Shown here one piece after another: positions 50,527 through 61,642 of a DNA stretch of 64,000 nucleotides (position 1 is its first letter; each line of letters opens with the position of its first letter). The translations under genes were made by a program, and so were the position numbers. The stretch is from Salinisphaera sp. T31B1 (GTDB taxonomy: Bacteria > Pseudomonadota > Gammaproteobacteria > Nevskiales > Salinisphaeraceae): the NCBI RefSeq assembly GCF_040361275.1, contig NZ_APNH01000003.1, forward strand, positions 1 through 64,000, read 5' to 3'. Below the pieces are notes generated by a model. It saw only the letters and a program-made list of their open reading frames with translations. It had not been told where the DNA came from and ran no database searches.

Positions 50527-51093
50527 TCAGAGCACGCCTTTCTGCTTGGCGGTATGCGTGGCGATCACGTCCATGAGCGTGGGCGACAGACAGTCATACG
50601 GCTCGAGGCCGATATCGTGCAGGTGGCGGCGCACCTCGCCCATCTTGTCCGGGTCGGCCCCGGCCTCGATGATCGACGACACGAATGCGGCGAACTGCGG
50701 CGGCTCCCAGCCGTCCTCGCTCGACAGCTCGGTATGGACGAAATCCAGCCCGTAGAACGGATGATCCGAGTTTTCGATACGGCCGTACATGTGCGTGCCG
50801 CATTCGCTGCAGGCATGGCGCTGGATCGCGGCCGACGAATCCACCACCTTGAGTTTTTCCTCGTTAGCGGTGACCTTGACGCTGTCTTTCGGTACCACCG
50901 CAATCTGGGCAAACTGGGCGCCGTCAGGCTTCCAGCACTTGGTACAGCCGCAGACATGGTTGTGGGCGCACTGGGACGATACGCTGACCTCCACCGGGTT
51001 GCTGCTGCACTTGCAGCGCAGGGTGCCGCCGGAAAAACCATCGGCGGCCGGCGTCATGCCGTTATCGACAGAGGGATGTATCGTTGTACTCAT
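50527..51093 (-). CDS. gfa: Glutathione-dependent formaldehyde-activating enzyme (Gfa)
   Basis: Gfa speeds formation of S-hydroxymethylglutathione from formaldehyde and glutathione, the entry to glutathione-linked formaldehyde oxidation. The 188-aa product has the zinc-binding cysteines [20 protein letters not shown] and [11 protein letters not shown]. It lies about 4 kb from the PQQ alcohol dehydrogenase cluster, which could produce formaldehyde if methanol is a substrate. The upstream region carries repeated AT-rich palindromes that may be operators. Confidence 0.93.
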
Positions 51094-52816: not shown

Positions 52817-54130
52817 ATGCGTGTGAGGAAACTAGCGCTTTCGGCGGTGGGTTCGCTGGCGCTGCTGGGCACGGTACCGGCGGCGCAGGCCATTGATATC
52901 CAGGCCGGCGACTGGACGTTCACGGCGACCGGCGAGATCAACGCCAACTATGTCTATACCGCCTGCGACAACCAGTCGACGCCCACCAACTTCGGCGGCA
53001 CGGTCGCCGGTAATGTGGTCGGTGCCTGTAACGTGGCGGGCCCCGTCGGCGAGAACGATATTTCCGGCATTCGCACCGGCCTGCTGCCCGGCCAGCTGGT
53101 CTTCACCGCCGCGACCCAGCAGAACGGCTGGGATATCTCAGGCACCTTCGGTCTGTATCCCGGCATCGTCACCAACGACAACCTGTCGCCGAACGTCGGT
53201 CCGGGCAATAACGTGGGCCTGGGGACCACCGGTCTCGACATCCGCCAGGTCTTCCTCAAATTCGGCAACGCCGAGTTCGGTACCGTCAAGGCCGGTCGCG
53301 ATTTCGGCCTGTTCGGCTTCGACGCGATCATCAACGACATGACCATCCCAGCCGTGGGCGTGAGCTCGGTGGCGGTGGCCTCGCCGGGCAACACGACGCT
53401 GGGCTCGATCGGCTTTGGCTATATCTATACCGACACGCTCAGCCAGATCAACTACACGACGCCGGACATGGACGGCTTTACCTGGACGATCGGTATCATC
53501 CAGACGATCGATTCGCTGACCGCCGGCAGCACGATCGGCATCGGCGAGACCGCACCCGGTTTCCAGACCCAGTTCAAGTATGCTTGGGACGGCGGCTTCG
53601 TGTCACTCAACGGCGTGACGCTGGAAGTCGACGGGATCACCGATACCCGTGACGGCAGCACCGACAAGAACCGCGTGTATGGCGCGGACCTGAACTGGAA
53701 GCAGAGCTTCGGGGCGATCGATATCCTGCTGTCGGGCTATTACACCAAAGGCATCGGTTCGGTGGCCTATCTGTTCGACAGTTTCGATGGGGCCGGCAAC
53801 TCGCGCGACTCCTACGGTGGACTGGCACAGGTGACCTATACGGCCGGCAAGAACAAGTTCGGCGTGAACTACGGTGAATCGCGTCTGGACGACACCGGTT
53901 TCGATCAGGACTTCTACCCGAACGCGGTAGCCGACAATGGCGATCCGGTCTGCGTGACCGGCGGCAACTGCCTGTTCAAGGTCAATCGCAAGGTCACGGC
54001 CGGCTATTACTACAGCCTGACGCCCAACCTCACGCTGACCACCGAGTACTCGCATGCGATCTCCGAGGACCATGCCAACAACAATATCGATTCCGACAAC
54101 GTGAACGTCGGCGCGTTCTTCACCTTCTAG
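52817..54130 (+). CDS. Outer-membrane porin
   Basis: The 437-aa product has a signal peptide (ALSAVGSLALLGTVPAAQA), an N-terminal GDWTFTATGEINANYVYT strand and a periodic beta-barrel pattern ending in an aromatic residue (NVGAFFTF). The family resembles general diffusion porins of gammaproteobacteria. Four cysteines lie in extracellular-type loops (ACDNQS, GACNVA, VCVTGGNC). A sigma-54 promoter and the shared activator module upstream link its control to the PQQ dehydrogenase, suggesting it admits the alcohol substrate; this is inference. Confidence 0.9.
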   Translation: MRVRKLALSAVGSLALLGTVPAAQAIDIQAGDWTFTATGEINANYVYTACDNQSTPTNFGGTVAGNVVGACNVAGPVGENDISGIRTGLLPGQLVFTAATQQNGWDISGTFGLYPGIVTNDNLSPNVGPGNNVGLGTTGLDIRQVFLKFGNAEFGTVKAGRDFGLFGFDAIINDMTIPAVGVSSVAVASPGNTTLGSIGFGYIYTDTLSQINYTTPDMDGFTWTIGIIQTIDSLTAGSTIGIGETAPGFQTQFKYAWDGGFVSLNGVTLEVDGITDTRDGSTDKNRVYGADLNWKQSFGAIDILLSGYYTKGIGSVAYLFDSFDGAGNSRDSYGGLAQVTYTAGKNKFGVNYGESRLDDTGFDQDFYPNAVADNGDPVCVTGGNCLFKVNRKVTAGYYYSLTPNLTLTTEYSHAISEDHANNNIDSDNVNVGAFFTF

Positions 54131-54266: not shown

Positions 54267-55262
54267 ATGAAAAATAAGAACGTGCTGTTGGGGTTGACCA
54301 TCGCAGGGCTTTTGACAGGTTGCAGCGCGATGGGGCACGCGCCCGGCGGTGCCGGCGACCCGCCGGCCTATGTGAATATCGCGCGCACGTCGGAGATGAG
54401 CGTGCAGCTCGTACCACAGATCGATACGGCCGCAGCGCCGAACGAGCATCCAGCAGCGTTCCAGCCCGCCCAGCTTGAAGCCCTGCTGAAGTCCCTGCGC
54501 GTGGTCGACGAGCAGGGCAACGAGGTCACGCTGGCCTCACCGTCGCGATTGGCGCAGCTGGCTTCCGACATGTCGAAGGGTTTCGTGCGGGCCGGGTCCC
54601 GGCAGGATGTGGCTTTCGCGGTGTTTCGGCGTTCCGGCGGATCGGTGTTCACTGCGTCGCGAAAAGTCACATCGGGGCGGGCCTTCTATCGGGATGAAAC
54701 GCTCAACCTGATCTTCGGAGAGTTCGACGCCGAGTTCAGCGAATTTCGCGATCTGAATATTTCGCCGTTGAAGAACGGCAGTCGGCTGGGAACCGACGGA
54801 GTCGATACCAGCCGACTGGTGGCCTCCGCCAGCTGGCATCGGCATGGTGATCGTGCGGACTGGATCGAGCTGCCGGCCACGCCAGCCGCTATCGAAGCGG
54901 CCGCGGCCGCGGCGCCAACCGCGATCGAGTCCAGTTCCAGCGGCGCGGCACAACCGCTGCAGTACGGACCGGCCGCTTCGAGCCGACGTGCTGTGCCTCC
55001 GCCGGCCGAGCCCCAGGGCGCGGTGTCCGGCGCAAGCGCAAGCCCGAGCCCCGCGGCCGATGGGCCGAGCCGCCCCGCCGCGGCACCGCCGGCTGTCACT
55101 CCGCCGCCGCGATTGGGGACATCGTCGTCGGCGGCCGGCGGTGACGATTGGAGCCGGATCGAGGAGCGTCTGACGCAGCTCAAGCGCCTGCGGGACAAGA
55201 ATCTGATCAGCGCCGAGGACTATCAAAGCAAGAAGGATGCACTTCTCGAACAGTTGCCATGA
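54267..55262 (+). CDS. Lipoprotein with a C-terminal SHOCT domain
   Basis: The 331-aa product has a lipoprotein signal (LLTGC), a globular region to about residue 210, an Ala/Pro-rich linker and a C-terminal SHOCT-like helix pair (RIEERLTQLKRLRDKNLISAEDYQSKKDALLEQLP). SHOCT domains occur on many secreted proteins and mediate oligomerisation. The start is after GAGGAGGAGCC. It lies between the porin terminator and the dehydrogenase regulatory region; the role is unknown. Confidence 0.82.
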   Translation: MKNKNVLLGLTIAGLLTGCSAMGHAPGGAGDPPAYVNIARTSEMSVQLVPQIDTAAAPNEHPAAFQPAQLEALLKSLRVVDEQGNEVTLASPSRLAQLASDMSKGFVRAGSRQDVAFAVFRRSGGSVFTASRKVTSGRAFYRDETLNLIFGEFDAEFSEFRDLNISPLKNGSRLGTDGVDTSRLVASASWHRHGDRADWIELPATPAAIEAAAAAAPTAIESSSSGAAQPLQYGPAASSRRAVPPPAEPQGAVSGASASPSPAADGPSRPAAAPPAVTPPPRLGTSSSAAGGDDWSRIEERLTQLKRLRDKNLISAEDYQSKKDALLEQLP

Positions 55263-55544: not shown

Positions 55545-57317
55545 ATGAAGACCAATTCCGTACGCGGATGGCGTCGGGGTCTGTTGGGGCTCGGCGTGCT
55601 TGCTCTGGCCGGAGCCGGCACGGCATCGGCCGCCGGCGTGAGCTGGGACCAGATCAACTCGGACCAGCAATCCACCGACAACGTGCTCACCGTCGGCATG
55701 GGCACACAGATGCAGCGGTTTTCGCCGCTCAAGCAACTCAATACCGACAACGTCAAGAATCTGTATCCGGCCTGGTCGTTCTCGTTCGGCGGCGAGAAGC
55801 AACGCGGTCAGGAAAGCCAGCCGTTGGTCTATGACGGCAAGATGTTCGTGACCGGCTCGTATTCGCGGGCCTGGGCGATCGACGTCAAGACCGGCGAGGA
55901 AATCTGGCAGTACGAGCAGCGACTGCCCGAGGGCATCATGCCGTGCTGTGACGTGGTCAACCGCGGCGGCGCGCTGTACGACAACCTGTTCATATTCGGC
56001 ACGCTCGACGCCAAACTGGTCGCGCTCGATCAGGAAACCGGCGACGTTGTCTGGAGCGAAGAGATCGCCGATTACAAGGACGGGTACTCCTATACGGCGG
56101 CGCCGTTGATCGTCGACGACATGGTGGTCACCGGCGTCTCCGGTGGCGAGTTCGGCGTGATGGGGCGTGTCGAGGCGCGTGACGCCAAGACCGGCAAGAT
56201 GGTCTGGAGTCGTCCCACCGTCGAAGGCAACATGGGCTATCTCTGGAAAGACGGCAAGAAGACCGAGAACGGCATCAGCGGCACCCGCAACGCCAGTTGG
56301 CCTGGCGACATGTACAAGCACGGCGGCGCGGCGACCTGGCTTGGCGGCACCTACGATCCGGAGACGAACCTGATCTATATCGGCGCGGGCAACCCGTCGC
56401 CCTGGAACGCGCACATGCGTCCAGGCGACAACCTGTTCTCGTCGTCGATCGTCGCGATCCATCCCGATACCGGCAAGATCGCCTGGCACTATCAGAAAAC
56501 ACCGCATGATGCCTGGGACTATGACGGTACCAACATGTGCGTGCCGTTCGACGCCGAGGGCAAGAAATTCTGTGCCTCGGCCGACCGCAACGGCTTCTTC
56601 TACGTGCTCGATCGAACCAACGGCAAACTCAAGAGCGCCGAGAAGTTCGTCAGCAAGGTCAACTGGGCCGACAAGATCGACCTGAAGACCGGCCGGCCGG
56701 TCGAAACGGGCAACCGCCCGGGCGATCCGTCGAAATCAGAGGGCAAGAAGGGCGAATCCGTGTTCGTCGCGCCGTCGTTCCTGGGGGCCAAGAACTGGAT
56801 GCCGATGTCCTACAACCCCGGCACCGGGCTGTTCTATATCCCGACCAACGAATGGGGCATGGATATCTGGAACGAACCCATTACCTACAAGGCCGGTGCC
56901 GCCTATCTGGGAGCGGGTTTCAATATTCAGCCGCTCTACGAGGACTATATCGGCGCGGTCCGTGCAATGGACCCGATGACCGGCAAGATCAAGTGGGAAG
57001 CCAAGAACAACGCGCCGCTGTGGAGTGGCACGATGACCACCGCCGGCAACCTCGTGTTCTACGGTACGCCCGAGGGTTATCTGAAGGCGCTGGATGCCAA
57101 CACCGGCGAAGAGCTGTGGAAGTTCCAGACCGGCTCCGGCGTGGTCGGCCAGCCGATCACCTGGGAGCAGGACGGCGTGCAGTATGTCGCCGTGACCTCC
57201 GGTTGGGGGGGTGCGGTGCCTTTGTGGGGCGGTGAAGTCGCCAAGCGCGTCAAGCTGCTCAACCAGGGCGGCAGCGTCTGGGTTTTCCGGATTCCGGAAG
57301 GCCTGGCGAGCAAGTAA
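55545..57317 (+). CDS. PQQ-dependent alcohol dehydrogenase, predicted lanthanide-dependent (PedH/XoxF-like)
   Basis: The 590-aa product is an eight-bladed quinoprotein of the periplasm. A signal peptide ([20 protein letters not shown]) precedes the vicinal disulfide C134-C135 (IMPCCDVV) near PQQ. Metal ligands are E202 (VSGGEFGV), N283 (GAGNPSPWN) and catalytic base D325 in WDYDG. D327, two residues after D325, is the extra Asp that distinguishes lanthanide enzymes such as XoxF and PedH from calcium ones. Electrons would pass to the PedF-like cytochromes encoded downstream. Substrate (methanol or longer alcohols) is not readable. Confidence 0.93.
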
Positions 57318-57392: not shown

Positions 57393-57878
57393 ATGAATAC
57401 AACCCATAATGTTCGGGCATCTGCCCGCGTATTGTTCGGTGTGCTGAGCCTGGCCGGATCCGGCCTTGTCTTCGCGCACGGCAACGTCACGCCGCAGCCG
57501 GTGGCCACCGATGGCCTCAAGCCGATCCCCGAGGGCCAATGGCTGACCGTCAACCCCTATCGCGGCGACCGGCATGCGATCGAGATCGGTGCCTCGGCCT
57601 TCAACGAAAACTGTGCCCGCTGTCACGGCCTGGAAGCCATCTCCGGTGGCATCGCGCCGGACCTGCGCGAGCTCGGTCCCGAGTACGACGAATACTTCAT
57701 CGAGCATGTGCGCAACGGCGTGCAACGCAATGGCATGACCTACATGCCCAGGTTCGAGGGGGTGCTCAGCCAGGAGGCGATGTGGGCCATCCGTTCGTAT
57801 ATCGATAAGCGCTACTACGAATACAACGACAAGAATCTCGACGATCTGTACGAGCAGGCCAACGCGTCGGGCTCGTAA
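57393..57878 (+). CDS. Cytochrome c-550, PedF type
   Basis: The 161-aa periplasmic monohaem cytochrome c has a signal peptide (VLFGVLSLAGSGLVFAHG). It has CARCH (C74, C77, H78) and a probable axial Met in GMTYMP (M118). The surrounding LRELGPEYDEYFIEHVRNGVQRNG is PedF-like; PedF accepts electrons from PQQ alcohol dehydrogenases. It is strikingly similar to the N-terminal half of the next gene product, indicating tandem duplication. It follows the dehydrogenase after 75 nt. Confidence 0.92.
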   Translation: MNTTHNVRASARVLFGVLSLAGSGLVFAHGNVTPQPVATDGLKPIPEGQWLTVNPYRGDRHAIEIGASAFNENCARCHGLEAISGGIAPDLRELGPEYDEYFIEHVRNGVQRNGMTYMPRFEGVLSQEAMWAIRSYIDKRYYEYNDKNLDDLYEQANASGS

Positions 57879-57921
57879 CGGACATGCAGCCCGCGCGAGC
57901 GGGACGAACAGGAGGAGTGAC

Positions 57922-59325
57922 ATGACCCAGTTTCTGAATGCCGCCGCCGTGGCAATGGTGGCCGGTCTGTTCTGGCTGTCCGGGCCGGCGCTGGCTCAGC
58001 ACGGGGGTGGGGAAGGCGACGTCGATCACAGCGCGCTGCCGGACATCCCCGACGGACAGTGGCTGGACAGCAACCCGTACCGCGGTTCCAAGAAAGCCAT
58101 GGAGATCGGCAAAGCCGCCTACGATGGCAATTGCGCCCGCTGTCACGGTATCGACATGATCTCGGGCGGGATCGCCCCGGATCTGCGCGAACTCGGACCC
58201 GAATACGATGAGTACTTTCTGGGACATATCCGCAACGGCGTGCAGCGCAACGGCATGACCTATATGCCTGCGTTCGAGGGTGTCCTCGACCAGAAGACAA
58301 TGTGGGCCATCCGTTCGTATATCGACCAGCGCCATTACGAGTACAAGGACAAGGATCTCGACGCGCTCTACAAGCAGTGGGACGACAAGCACGGCGACGA
58401 TTCGTCTGCTGACCAGGCGCCCGACGATCACAGCGCAAAGGCCTCCGAGGCCGGTCCGTCCACGGCGTCCGCCACAGCGCGTTCGGTGCGCGTGGCCCGC
58501 TCCGGCGACGACATGCCCGATCGTCTTCAGGCGATCCAGCGCAACGGCTCGATCGAGATCGCGGTGTACCGAGCCTTCCCTCCATGGTCATACCAGCCGG
58601 ACAGCGGTGCTTTCACGGGCATCGATGTCGATATCGGTCAGGCGCTGGCCGAGCAGCTCGGCGTCAAGCTCAACGTCCGTGCCTTCACTCCCGACGAGAC
58701 CATGGGCGACGATATCCGTAACCAGGTGTGGAAAGGCCATTATCTCGGCGGCGGAACCGCCGATGCCATGCTGCATGTCGGCATGGCCCCGGCGTTCCAG
58801 GCCGACAACGATCAGGCGACCTTTCTGGCGCCGTACTACGACGAGACCATGGGCTTTGCCTACGACGCAGAGCGCCTGGGCGAAGACGTCGACAGTCCGC
58901 TGGCATTGGCCGGCAAGAAGGTCGGCGTACAGCTGGACTCGCTCGGCGACTATTTTCTGACCTCGGCCTATCAGGGCCGGCTGCGTGACGATGTGGAGCA
59001 TTTCGACTCCGTGCCCGATGCCATGCGGGCGCTCAACAGTGGCGAGGTCGCCGCAGTGATGGCGCCGGTGGGTGAGCTCTCCGGCGCGGCACGGATGCTC
59101 GATGAACAACGCGTCAAGATCCGCACCACGCCGCTGTCGGGCATGTACCAGACCAGCTGGGATGTGGGCGTGGCGATCAAGGCCGGCAATCCGGAGCTGG
59201 CGGGGGCGATCCGCCAGGCCATGCAGACACTGCGCGACCAGGGCAAGATCGAGGCGATCTTCAAGCAATATGGCGTGCCCTATCGCGCGCCGACCGCCGA
59301 GTCGTCGGCCACCACGGGCGCGTAG
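57922..59325 (+). CDS. Fusion: PedF-type cytochrome c + periplasmic binding (PedG/MoxJ-like) domain
   Basis: The 467-aa product joins two normally separate quinoprotein accessory proteins. After a signal peptide (VAGLFWLSGPALAQH), a cytochrome c domain (CARCH, C71/C74/H75; Met in MTYMP) spans about 40-155. An Asp/Ala/Ser-rich linker of about 40 residues follows, then a solute-binding domain (about 200-455; IEIAVYRAFPPWSYQPDSGAFTGIDVDIGQALAEQLGVKL; ADAMLHVGMAP). MoxJ/XoxJ/PedG proteins assist the dehydrogenase or its cytochrome. The fusion would tether assistant and electron acceptor. Confidence 0.92.
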   Translation: MTQFLNAAAVAMVAGLFWLSGPALAQHGGGEGDVDHSALPDIPDGQWLDSNPYRGSKKAMEIGKAAYDGNCARCHGIDMISGGIAPDLRELGPEYDEYFLGHIRNGVQRNGMTYMPAFEGVLDQKTMWAIRSYIDQRHYEYKDKDLDALYKQWDDKHGDDSSADQAPDDHSAKASEAGPSTASATARSVRVARSGDDMPDRLQAIQRNGSIEIAVYRAFPPWSYQPDSGAFTGIDVDIGQALAEQLGVKLNVRAFTPDETMGDDIRNQVWKGHYLGGGTADAMLHVGMAPAFQADNDQATFLAPYYDETMGFAYDAERLGEDVDSPLALAGKKVGVQLDSLGDYFLTSAYQGRLRDDVEHFDSVPDAMRALNSGEVAAVMAPVGELSGAARMLDEQRVKIRTTPLSGMYQTSWDVGVAIKAGNPELAGAIRQAMQTLRDQGKIEAIFKQYGVPYRAPTAESSATTGA

Positions 59326-59331
59326 CCGGTC

Positions 59332-59895
59332 GTGTCTCGGTATGGGTGGACGATTGCCCTGGGGGCACTGCTGGCCGCACTGGCCATACCGGCCCTGGCG
59401 GCTCGTTCCCTGGTGGTCTCGTTGATACCGGCCCAGGGCCCTGAAGTGGCCGTGGCCGACCTGCGTCTGGAAGATAGCGGCGCGTATCGACTGATCTATC
59501 GCAGTGCTCCGTTCACGCCGCATTTTCTATCCATGCGGCCGTTCGAGTGCTTGAACGCGGCGCCCAGACTGCAATGCCACCTGCCGTATCCGTATGCCAA
59601 GGGGCATCGGGTGTCCGCGGATGACCTCGCCGACCTGAGCTACGACCTGCTGTTTCTAGTCAAACAGGCGGGCGAGTACGGCGTGGACTTCTGGAATGGC
59701 CGCTACTACCGTCTGTCGTGGGAGGGCGATACCATCGTAGGTCAGGCGATGGCGGCTGACATGAATATTCTTGCCTCACGACCGCCGGCCGGGAACGACC
59801 GACCGCTCAAGCCAGTGGATCTGATCGATATCGCGGCTTCGGACACGCCGTACCCGAGGCTTCGGATCGCGCCGCTACCGAAGGAGTTGCCATGA
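59332..59895 (+). CDS. Unrecognised periplasmic protein of the quinoprotein cluster
   Basis: The 187-aa product starts at a GTG 6 nt after the fusion gene. A signal peptide (IALGALLAALAIPALAAR) is followed by a small mixed domain with aromatic clusters (RLIYRSAPFTPHF; YDLLFLVKQAGEYGVDFWNGRYYRLSWEGD) and two cysteines (FECLNAAPRLQCH). I do not recognise the family. The 4-nt overlap with the SoxYZ-like gene and its position mid-cluster imply a role with the dehydrogenase or its maturation. Confidence 0.7.
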   Translation: MSRYGWTIALGALLAALAIPALAARSLVVSLIPAQGPEVAVADLRLEDSGAYRLIYRSAPFTPHFLSMRPFECLNAAPRLQCHLPYPYAKGHRVSADDLADLSYDLLFLVKQAGEYGVDFWNGRYYRLSWEGDTIVGQAMAADMNILASRPPAGNDRPLKPVDLIDIAASDTPYPRLRIAPLPKELP

Positions 59896-60662
59896 AGCGG
59901 GCTTTCGTCATCTGGATCGTGCTGACGCTGTGTGCGCCGACGATCGCGGTCGCCGCCGATGTGCCTGCCGATCCGCTGGATTCGTCGCAATGGGTCTATA
60001 TGGCCCGCAAGTTCTTCAAGGACCAGCCCGTGGTGTTCGACGAGCGCGTGCGCGTCGCGGCACCGGCCTATGCCGAGGACTCGCTGCATACGCCGGTCCA
60101 GATCAGCGCGCCGGGTCTCGAGGGGGTCGAACACGTGCTGGTTTTTGCCGACATGAGTCCGATTACCCGCGTCCTGGACTACTATCCGCTCCAGGCGGAT
60201 CCGTCGATCGGGTTTTCGTTCAAGATCCAGCAGGCCACCCCGATCCGTGCGGCCATGCGTACCCGCGATGGTATCTGGCATGTCGGTGGTGTCTGGATCG
60301 ATGCCCAGGGCGGGGGCTGTACCGCACCCAGTGTGGCCAGTGCCAATCCGATCTGGGAAACACGGCTGGGCGAGACCACTGCTCGCCTGTGGCCGGTCCG
60401 TGACGGTAGCCGGCGGCTGAAGTTCCGGATCGTTCACCCGATGGATACCGGTCTGGCCGCAGGTATCCCGGAATTCTTCATTTCGCAGATCGAACTCCTG
60501 GGTGCGGACGGTCAGCCCCTGGCTCGGCTCAAGCCCTACGAGCCGGTATCCGAAAACCCGGTGTTCACGCTCGATCTGGACGCCGCGGGGCCGGTCACGC
60601 TCGTCGGCCGTGACAACAACGGCAACCGCTTCCAGGCCCGCGTGGCCGAACCGTCCTCATGA
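59892..60662 (+). CDS. Quinoprotein-associated SoxYZ-like carrier
   Basis: The 256-aa product has a signal peptide and two Ig-like regions resembling SoxY and SoxZ fused. The carrier-type Cys is C143 in AQGGGCTAPS, analogous to the SoxY GGC swinging-arm motif. The C-terminal part (RIVHPMDTGLAAGIPEFFISQIELLGADGQPLARL) resembles SoxZ. Such carriers are found beside PQQ dehydrogenases with a metallohydrolase; their substrate is unknown. It overlaps both neighbours by 4 nt. Confidence 0.86.
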   Translation: MKRAFVIWIVLTLCAPTIAVAADVPADPLDSSQWVYMARKFFKDQPVVFDERVRVAAPAYAEDSLHTPVQISAPGLEGVEHVLVFADMSPITRVLDYYPLQADPSIGFSFKIQQATPIRAAMRTRDGIWHVGGVWIDAQGGGCTAPSVASANPIWETRLGETTARLWPVRDGSRRLKFRIVHPMDTGLAAGIPEFFISQIELLGADGQPLARLKPYEPVSENPVFTLDLDAAGPVTLVGRDNNGNRFQARVAEPSS

Positions 60663-61642
60663 TCGCGCTCGCGAAACGTCTGCGATGGCGTGTCCTGGTC
60701 GGACTGGGCATGGTCTTGTGCCATAGCGCCGCCGCATTCGCCGCCGACTACTACGATCTGCACCCGCAGCAGATCGCCGCGGACACCTACGTGTTCTACG
60801 GTGCGCAGGAGAATTTCAGCTTCGACAATCACGGCGCAATCGCCAATACGGGCTTCATCGTCACCGATGCGGGTGTGATTGTCATCGATACCGGGCCGTC
60901 GCGCCTCTACGGCCGGGCGATGCGCGCTGCGATCGCCAGAGTTACCGATCGGCCGATCGCACAGGTCTATATCACCCACGCGCATCCGGATCACTTTCTC
61001 GGCAACAACGCCTTCGAGGACGTGCCGATCGCCACGCTGGCCGGCACCATCGATCAGATCAAGCGTATCGGCCCGGATCTGGCCAGTAATCTGTACAACC
61101 TCGTCGGGCCGGCGATGCGGGGCACGACCGCGCGCGCGCCGGATCAGGTCGTGGCCGATGGCGATACGGTGGTGTTCGGCCGGCATCGATTGTCGTTGAT
61201 CGGCATGCGTGGCCATACCGGTGCGGATCTGATGGTCCTGGATCGCACGACCGGCGTGTTGTTCGCGGGCGATATCGCCTTCTACCAGCGCGCCGCGACG
61301 ACGCCGAATGCCGATATCGCACGCTGGGAGCAGAGCTTGGCTGCGGCCGAGCAGCTCGACTTCAGGTATCTCGTGCCCGGCCATGGGCCGGTCACCGAAG
61401 ATGGCGCGCCGCTGTTGCAGACCGCGGCCTACCTGAATTGGCTGGTTTCGCATTTCGAAGCCGCTGCCGCGGTCGGCCGTAGCGAGGCCGAAGTGCTATA
61501 CGATCGGCTGCCGCCGCGATGGGCCCGACTGGCGGTCGAGCCCAGTGAATACCAGCGCTCGGTATCGCATCTCTATCCAGCGATCGAGCAACGGTCGCTG
61601 TCGGCGCCGCGTGCCGAGGGCGGCGCCGCGGCCGGTAGCTGA
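60659..61642 (+). CDS. Quinoprotein relay zinc metallohydrolase (SoxH-like)
   Basis: The 327-aa secreted metallo-beta-lactamase-fold protein has a zinc motif HAHPDH (107-112), a later His in GMRGHTGADLMV, an Asp in GVLFAGDIAF and a His in LVPGHGPV. SoxH-related hydrolases are encoded beside SoxYZ-like carriers and PQQ dehydrogenases and are thought to release the carrier-bound group. It starts inside the carrier stop and ends the cluster. A convergent minus-strand operon follows. Confidence 0.9.
   Translation: MIALAKRLRWRVLVGLGMVLCHSAAAFAADYYDLHPQQIAADTYVFYGAQENFSFDNHGAIANTGFIVTDAGVIVIDTGPSRLYGRAMRAAIARVTDRPIAQVYITHAHPDHFLGNNAFEDVPIATLAGTIDQIKRIGPDLASNLYNLVGPAMRGTTARAPDQVVADGDTVVFGRHRLSLIGMRGHTGADLMVLDRTTGVLFAGDIAFYQRAATTPNADIARWEQSLAAAEQLDFRYLVPGHGPVTEDGAPLLQTAAYLNWLVSHFEAAAAVGRSEAEVLYDRLPPRWARLAVEPSEYQRSVSHLYPAIEQRSLSAPRAEGGAAAGS

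Follow-up and report, generated by a model that had tools for sequence, protein, structure and literature searches.

Why should a bacterium keep one cytochrome twice in succession, once on its own and once joined to a periplasmic binding domain that other genomes encode separately? The question is raised by a gene cluster in the halophilic bacterium Salinisphaera sp. T31B1, within the 64,000-nucleotide stretch analyzed here (contig NZ_APNH01000003.1, positions 1 to 64,000; hereafter the window). The cluster, which lies on the plus strand, begins with a PQQ-dependent alcohol dehydrogenase (ADH) of the methanol/ethanol family (55545–57317, 590 aa), PedH-like by its matches (TIGR03075, 775.5 bits; best PDB matches 6zcv and 6zcw). 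It is followed by pedF, encoding a stand-alone cytochrome c550 of 161 aa (57393–57878), and by a single gene for a 467-aa protein in which a second PedF is joined to PedG (57922–59325). After a gene of unknown family, present at this place in the window only (59332–59895), come a SoxYZ-like carrier of the type associated with quinoprotein dehydrogenases (59892–60662; TIGR04557, 198.4 bits, cut-off 140) and a SoxH-like protein, quinoprotein relay system zinc metallohydrolase 1 (60659–61642; TIGR04558, 388.1 bits, cut-off 300). The interposed gene encodes an apparently exported protein of 187 aa that had no match in Pfam or NCBIfam. Since it also has no counterpart in the other three genomes bearing the fusion, it probably lies outside the core of the ped cluster. 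Relatives of this protein at 32–43% were found in G020, G060 and G054, and the G020 and G054 copies lie off the contig that carries the ped cluster. Upstream of the ADH, two genes without a confident family (52817–54130 and 54267–55262) keep their position in three related genomes. A GFA-family gene (glutathione-dependent formaldehyde-activating) lies on the minus strand at 50527–51093, a few kb upstream of the dehydrogenase cluster.

Both reading frames, 57393–57878 and 57922–59325, are open, and both cytochromes exceed the NCBIfam cut-off for cytochrome c-550 PedF (TIGR04494, 122 bits), the free protein with 179.7 bits and the fused one with 139.6. The free copy has a CARCH heme site and an apparent mature N-terminus reading HGNVTPQ. 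An earlier inspection of the letters of this stretch (the sequence-only reading) had rightly taken it for a stand-alone PedF-type cytochrome, and had called the two cytochromes near copies. They are indeed of one type (E 9e-66), but the wording was too strong for proteins that share 92 of 147 residues (63%). The architecture of the fused protein was drawn from family models and recurs in 3 further genomes. A signal peptide assigned by eye with the AxA rule (residues 1–25, 57922–57996) precedes the cytochrome c domain (residues 26–152, 57997–58377), which contains C71-A-R-C74-H75 and M115, the latter being the putative sixth heme ligand. An acidic linker rich in Ala, Asp and Ser (residues 153–198, 58378–58515) then leads to a PedG-type periplasmic binding domain (residues 199–460, 58516–59301) carrying the PedG motif DDIRNQVWKGHYLGG.

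Structure prediction with AlphaFold2 agreed with this division. Block-mean pLDDT was 68–98 over residues 201–460, where 22 of the 26 blocks exceeded 80, and fell below 50 over residues 157–197, in line with the earlier proposal of a disordered linker; the disorder is a prediction of the model. The cytochrome part of the full-length model was poor, probably owing to the small number of cytochromes in its alignment, and the domain was therefore modelled separately (residues 26–158, mean pLDDT 91.6). A fold search with the separate model returned the quinohemoprotein ADH 1yiq as the best match and the only one under 0.001 (E 3.4e-4), then 1kv9 (E 3.9e-3); XoxG and cytochrome cL ranked lower than 1yiq. 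The MoxG (cL) model did not list the fused protein and gave the free PedF 19.6 bits against a cut-off of 147.8.

The C-terminal half had been described as a MoxJ/PedG-like binding domain, and only the second part of that name held. It matches SBP_bac_3 of Pfam, best over residues 211–261, and TIGR01096 over residues 203–450, under the cut-off of the latter model. Its assignment to PedG comes from the tree described below and from the PedG motif region DLRN.VWKG, which is present. The MoxJ-type model TIGR03871 gave 26.5 bits against a cut-off of 212.15, which the domain thus fails; of three stand-alone PedGs, two scored 17.0 and 16.4 bits with this model and the third was not listed. The fold is nonetheless that of MxaJ (5sv6: Z 20.3, rmsd 2.5 over 222 residues, 17% identity), but 5sv6 stood at rank 47 of the 50 shown, tied with many amino-acid binding proteins, and the structural ranking does not single MxaJ out.

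We then asked how widely the fusion occurs. The genome sets searched comprised 61, 85, 369, 398, 296, 300 and 293 genomes; they overlap, and the larger groups are samples. Within the genus, 4 of 14 genomes matched strongly (that of the window, G000, together with G008, G011 and G012), and all four carry the fusion. Matches in the other ten were weak or absent; three of those genomes are 81–87% complete. The distinct fused sequences number three, G011 being nearly identical to G012. No second strong PedG match was found in the four genomes, and the fusion is therefore their only PedG. Among named records, the nearest relatives are Salinisphaera halophila, S. orenii and an entry called Endozoicomonas sp. 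G2_2. The last of these (NZ_JAGHQU010000001.1) shares its match position with G008, and its name looks wrong because G008 is placed in the genus of the window.

Fusion and separation were told apart by stop-by-stop reading of 149 fetched loci (109 labels) with both domains; this count covers, among the matches listed, the genomes from which both domains were fetched. Seven labels were fused, namely the four genomes of the genus and three duplicate records. The 102 separate labels correspond to 98 genomes, 2 plasmid records and 2 entries with domain sequences equal to those of genomes already counted. Outside the genus, no PedF-PedG fusion was found, and in these 98 genomes and 2 plasmid records the domains are separate genes within one fetched stretch, which bears out the sequence-only reading that the binding domain is normally a protein of its own. 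Several candidates were discarded on the way. Among plasmids, 190 records matched, and of the 30 listed two were read, H1 and H2; each appeared as a single BLAST piece over most of the query, yet each has two annotated genes. Candidate fusions in G032, G049, G077, G563, G816, G992, G915 and some other genomes likewise proved to be separate genes by the stop-by-stop check. A different arrangement was seen in G157 (L056:526-1356), where PedF is joined in one frame to an apparent second cytochrome c domain with a second CxxCH and pedG is separate. Overall, the PedF-PedG fusion is real, conserved, old and confined to one lineage among the genomes sampled.

How did it come about? Free and fused cytochromes were compared within each of the four fusion-bearing genomes, giving 60–64% amino-acid identity and 50–52% identity at third codon positions. 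The duplication of pedF appears to be old, since 63% of the protein sequence and about half of the third codon positions are shared in the window. There was no clear sign of recent gene conversion between the cytochromes, the third-position identity being 0.50–0.52 in all four genomes. A first tree was built from 75 PedF domains on only 117 columns, and its bootstrap had not quite settled. All nine of its sequences from the genus fall into one clade (100/97), inside which the fused domains form a clade of their own (100/100) with a long stem, 0.55 changes per site in length. The free PedF of the window groups with the fused clade (98/83), apart from the other free PedFs, which counts against the simplest history, although the data do not reject a topology that unites all free PedFs (p-AU 0.29). 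In a second tree, of 65 binding domains, the four fused domains also form one clade (100/100), which has as its neighbours 19 stand-alone PedGs from the same order (97/98); a further PedG of that order, L048, falls outside this grouping on a long branch. Solimonas has ADH, pedF and pedG in this order as separate genes. Because both trees support one duplication and one fusion, it is strongly supported, as far as sequence comparison goes, that a tandem pedF duplicate arose in the genus beside pedG and then joined it once, the other copy staying free. This is the order of events, duplication followed by fusion, that had been proposed at the outset.

The two cytochrome copies differ at their N-termini. 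As a reference we used the 72 PedF domains without an attached PedG, which come from the fetched loci across Proteobacteria and include that of G157, joined to another cytochrome. HG opens 71 of the 72, that of the window's free PedF included, and the residue before it, at the apparent signal-peptide cut, is Ala in 59, Ser in 8 and Gly in 4. The motif that follows from this, HG[DN]VxPQ, is nearly fixed beyond HG as well (V 96%, P 100%, Q 96% of the 72). It occupies positions 57477–57497 in the free copy of the window, and its columns are kept in all six free PedF copies of the genus. All three distinct fused cytochromes lack it, with 5 motif columns differing. That the mature N-terminus of PedF is so fixed hints at a function in docking or in binding a metal. 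Because the motif is lost in the tethered copy only, its distribution further suggests a docking or partner-recognition element made unnecessary by covalent tethering; alternatively, the loss may signal a lesser role of the fused heme. In pointing to one specific short motif, the fusion supplies what we consider the best lead of this analysis.

The enzyme that the two cytochromes would serve was judged by its metal site. The ADH of the window reads W324-D325-Y326-D327, with a second Asp two residues past the catalytic Asp, and this site aligns to WDFDG of 6zcv and 6zcw and to WDFSG of 1flg. We take 6zcw to be PedH, which uses a lanthanide, and 1flg to be ExaA, which uses calcium, and a W-D-Y-D site is presumably the mark of a lanthanide-type enzyme. 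By these residues, the ADH beside the fusion has a lanthanide-type metal site. It also has a Cys-Cys pair at 134–135.

What the fused protein does has to be argued from these observations. The sequence-only reading pictured acceptor and assistant factor held together at the dehydrogenase by one polypeptide, and such a linkage is plausible. Our best explanation as a whole, which we hold tentatively and at a little under an even chance, is that the fusion is a dehydrogenase-docked acceptor and maturation helper working beside a free PedF shuttle. The PedG half would dock on the dehydrogenase, as is thought for XoxJ and MxaJ, and would keep or load the ADH in its active PQQ- and metal-bound state, with the flexible linker holding the heme domain near the PQQ site. 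The fused polypeptide would then accept electrons and hand them to the free PedF, which in turn would shuttle them towards the terminal oxidase; which heme passes electrons to which is guesswork. The function of MxaJ, XoxJ and PedG is still debated. Moreover, a strong maturation role for PedG is not established, because disruption of pedG in Pseudomonas putida gave a modest growth defect only, according to PMC12997753. Roles for the fusion through its cytochrome only, or through its PedG half only, are possible.

A bolder version of the docked-acceptor explanation would make this a convergent, second fusion of a cytochrome to a J protein. The tethered heme would sense, or draw electrons from, the freshly loaded ADH, the free PedF would export them, and HG[DN]VxPQ would recognize PedG or the ADH and become redundant once the two are linked. 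We regard this combination as unlikely to hold in full. Such a division of labour is not described for the comparable Methylacidiphilum fusion, cytochrome cGJ, in the literature consulted.

Several other explanations compete with a docked acceptor and helper. It could be that the PedG half alone matters at the ADH, leaving the fused heme as a by-product or structural tail and the free PedF as the sole working acceptor. The long stem of the fused cytochromes, which would also fit relaxed constraint, and the loss of the family's N-terminal motif from the fused copy only are what this explanation would lead one to expect. It is harder to reconcile with the heme site: C71, C74, H75 and M115 are kept in all three distinct fused sequences, as they are in 72 of 72 other PedF domains. 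Nor does it fit the pattern of identity among the three distinct fused proteins, in which the cytochrome core (80–90%) stands above the binding domain (74–75%). With its heme residues kept and its core more conserved than the binding domain, the fused heme domain shows a pattern that suggests purifying selection. An idle heme thus seems unlikely to us, though it deserves serious weight.

Alternatively, the two cytochromes might divide the work by enzyme, the fused one accepting electrons from the lanthanide-type ADH and the free one from other PQQ dehydrogenases. Partners for such a division do exist. A second locus of G008 (L083) encodes a calcium-type ADH, with the motif WDFSG, and a lone third PedF, with no PedG in the 12 kb read; an apparent pentapeptide-repeat protein gene, recognized by eye, lies between them. 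G011 has the same calcium-type ADH and PedF at a second locus (L081), where the contig ends about 180 bases past pedF. The genome of the window has three further full-length PQQ dehydrogenases (L118, L119 and L120); the motifs of its further PQQ dehydrogenases are WDYDG, WDYTA (with CxxCH) and WDYAG. Against a division of this kind, the free pedF adjoins the lanthanide-type ADH in all four fusion-bearing genomes, and we consider it rather improbable.

The fusion might also be no more than a pre-protein, cut in the acidic linker after export into an ordinary PedF and an ordinary PedG, and would then merely fix their ratio. A linker that is predicted to be disordered and is poorly conserved (26–33% identity among the three distinct fused proteins) would suit such processing. 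So would the PedG half, for which no signal peptide of its own was seen by eye and which would accordingly depend on that of the cytochrome for export. Yet inspection by eye revealed no conserved cleavage site in the linker, and the N-terminus of the fused cytochrome is unlike that of an ordinary PedF. Cleavage is, in our judgement, doubtful.

The best generic matches of the C-terminal domain are amino-acid binding proteins, so it could in principle serve an ABC importer as a genuine amino-acid binding protein. This is very improbable: none of the eight genes searched between 52.8 and 61.6 kb encodes an ABC transporter, and the neighbours with an assigned family are quinoprotein genes. Amino-acid binding proteins use an Arg as a ligand residue, and the profile alignment, read by eye, places D, E or A at that position in the fused proteins, which also carry a PedG-specific insertion relative to amino-acid binding proteins. 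Finally, a sequencing or assembly artefact, the worry voiced in the sequence-only reading, can be dismissed as next to impossible because the two genes lie in different frames with stops of their own and the same fusion is conserved in four related genomes from separate assemblies, of which three are named public records, nothing having been found in favour of an artefact.

It remains to set the docked acceptor and helper that we prefer beside known systems, the nearest of which belongs to methanol oxidation. The literature describes, in the methane oxidizer Methylacidiphilum, a XoxG-XoxJ fusion (PMC8170126) accompanied by a separate XoxJ (PMC8498564, PMC6688271). The fusion, cytochrome cGJ, is named as a physiological acceptor of methanol dehydrogenase (PMC7082304), and XoxJ is proposed to activate XoxF (PMC8170126; PMC7391723). 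As far as these descriptions go, cGJ resembles the Salinisphaera protein in placing in one chain a cytochrome c acceptor and the binding protein that accompanies a lanthanide PQQ dehydrogenase in the periplasm, and in that one partner is also kept as a separate gene. The components differ. According to the same sources, cGJ combines XoxG, of cL type, with XoxJ, serves a methanol dehydrogenase in Verrucomicrobiota and has XoxJ as its spare copy. The Salinisphaera fusion combines PedF, of c550 type, with PedG beside an ethanol-type ADH in Gammaproteobacteria, and here the spare copy is the cytochrome. The simple reading of our trees is that the Salinisphaera fusion would have arisen inside the genus from local pedF and pedG.

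The earlier remark that such an arrangement had not been seen described therefore needs to be narrowed. As a general claim it gives way to the Methylacidiphilum precedent. For the PedF/PedG (ethanol dehydrogenase) family it stands, in that no description of a fusion was found in the literature searched, which was mostly without subscription papers. A fusion of acceptor and J protein is thus already known in kind, and the PedF-PedG version is apparently new for the ethanol-type family. Two lineages each joining a J protein to the cytochrome acceptor of a lanthanide-type PQQ dehydrogenase would be natural evidence that both sit together on the enzyme. Salinisphaera adds an internal control, since it has the same cytochrome in free and in tethered form, and one-chain acceptors may be useful in alcohol bioelectrodes.

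Closer in gene content is the cluster of P. putida, given in PMC12997753 as pedE, pedF, pedG, PP_2677 (SoxYZ-like), PP_2678 (SoxH-like) and pedH. As described there, the same kinds of genes stand in the same order as in the window, apart from the 187-aa protein, but pedF is single and pedG separate, whereas in the window pedF is doubled and its second copy joined to pedG. The same source likens PedG structurally to MxaJ and XoxJ, and the fused binding domain shares the fold of these proteins, differing in its low identity to MxaJ and in its score far under the TIGR03871 cut-off. In holding a heme domain covalently within an alcohol-oxidizing system, the fusion also recalls the type II quinohemoprotein alcohol dehydrogenases (1yiq, 1kv9). 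Those enzymes, however, unite the heme and PQQ domains in one chain, whereas in Salinisphaera the heme domain shares its chain with the helper protein and not with the enzyme.
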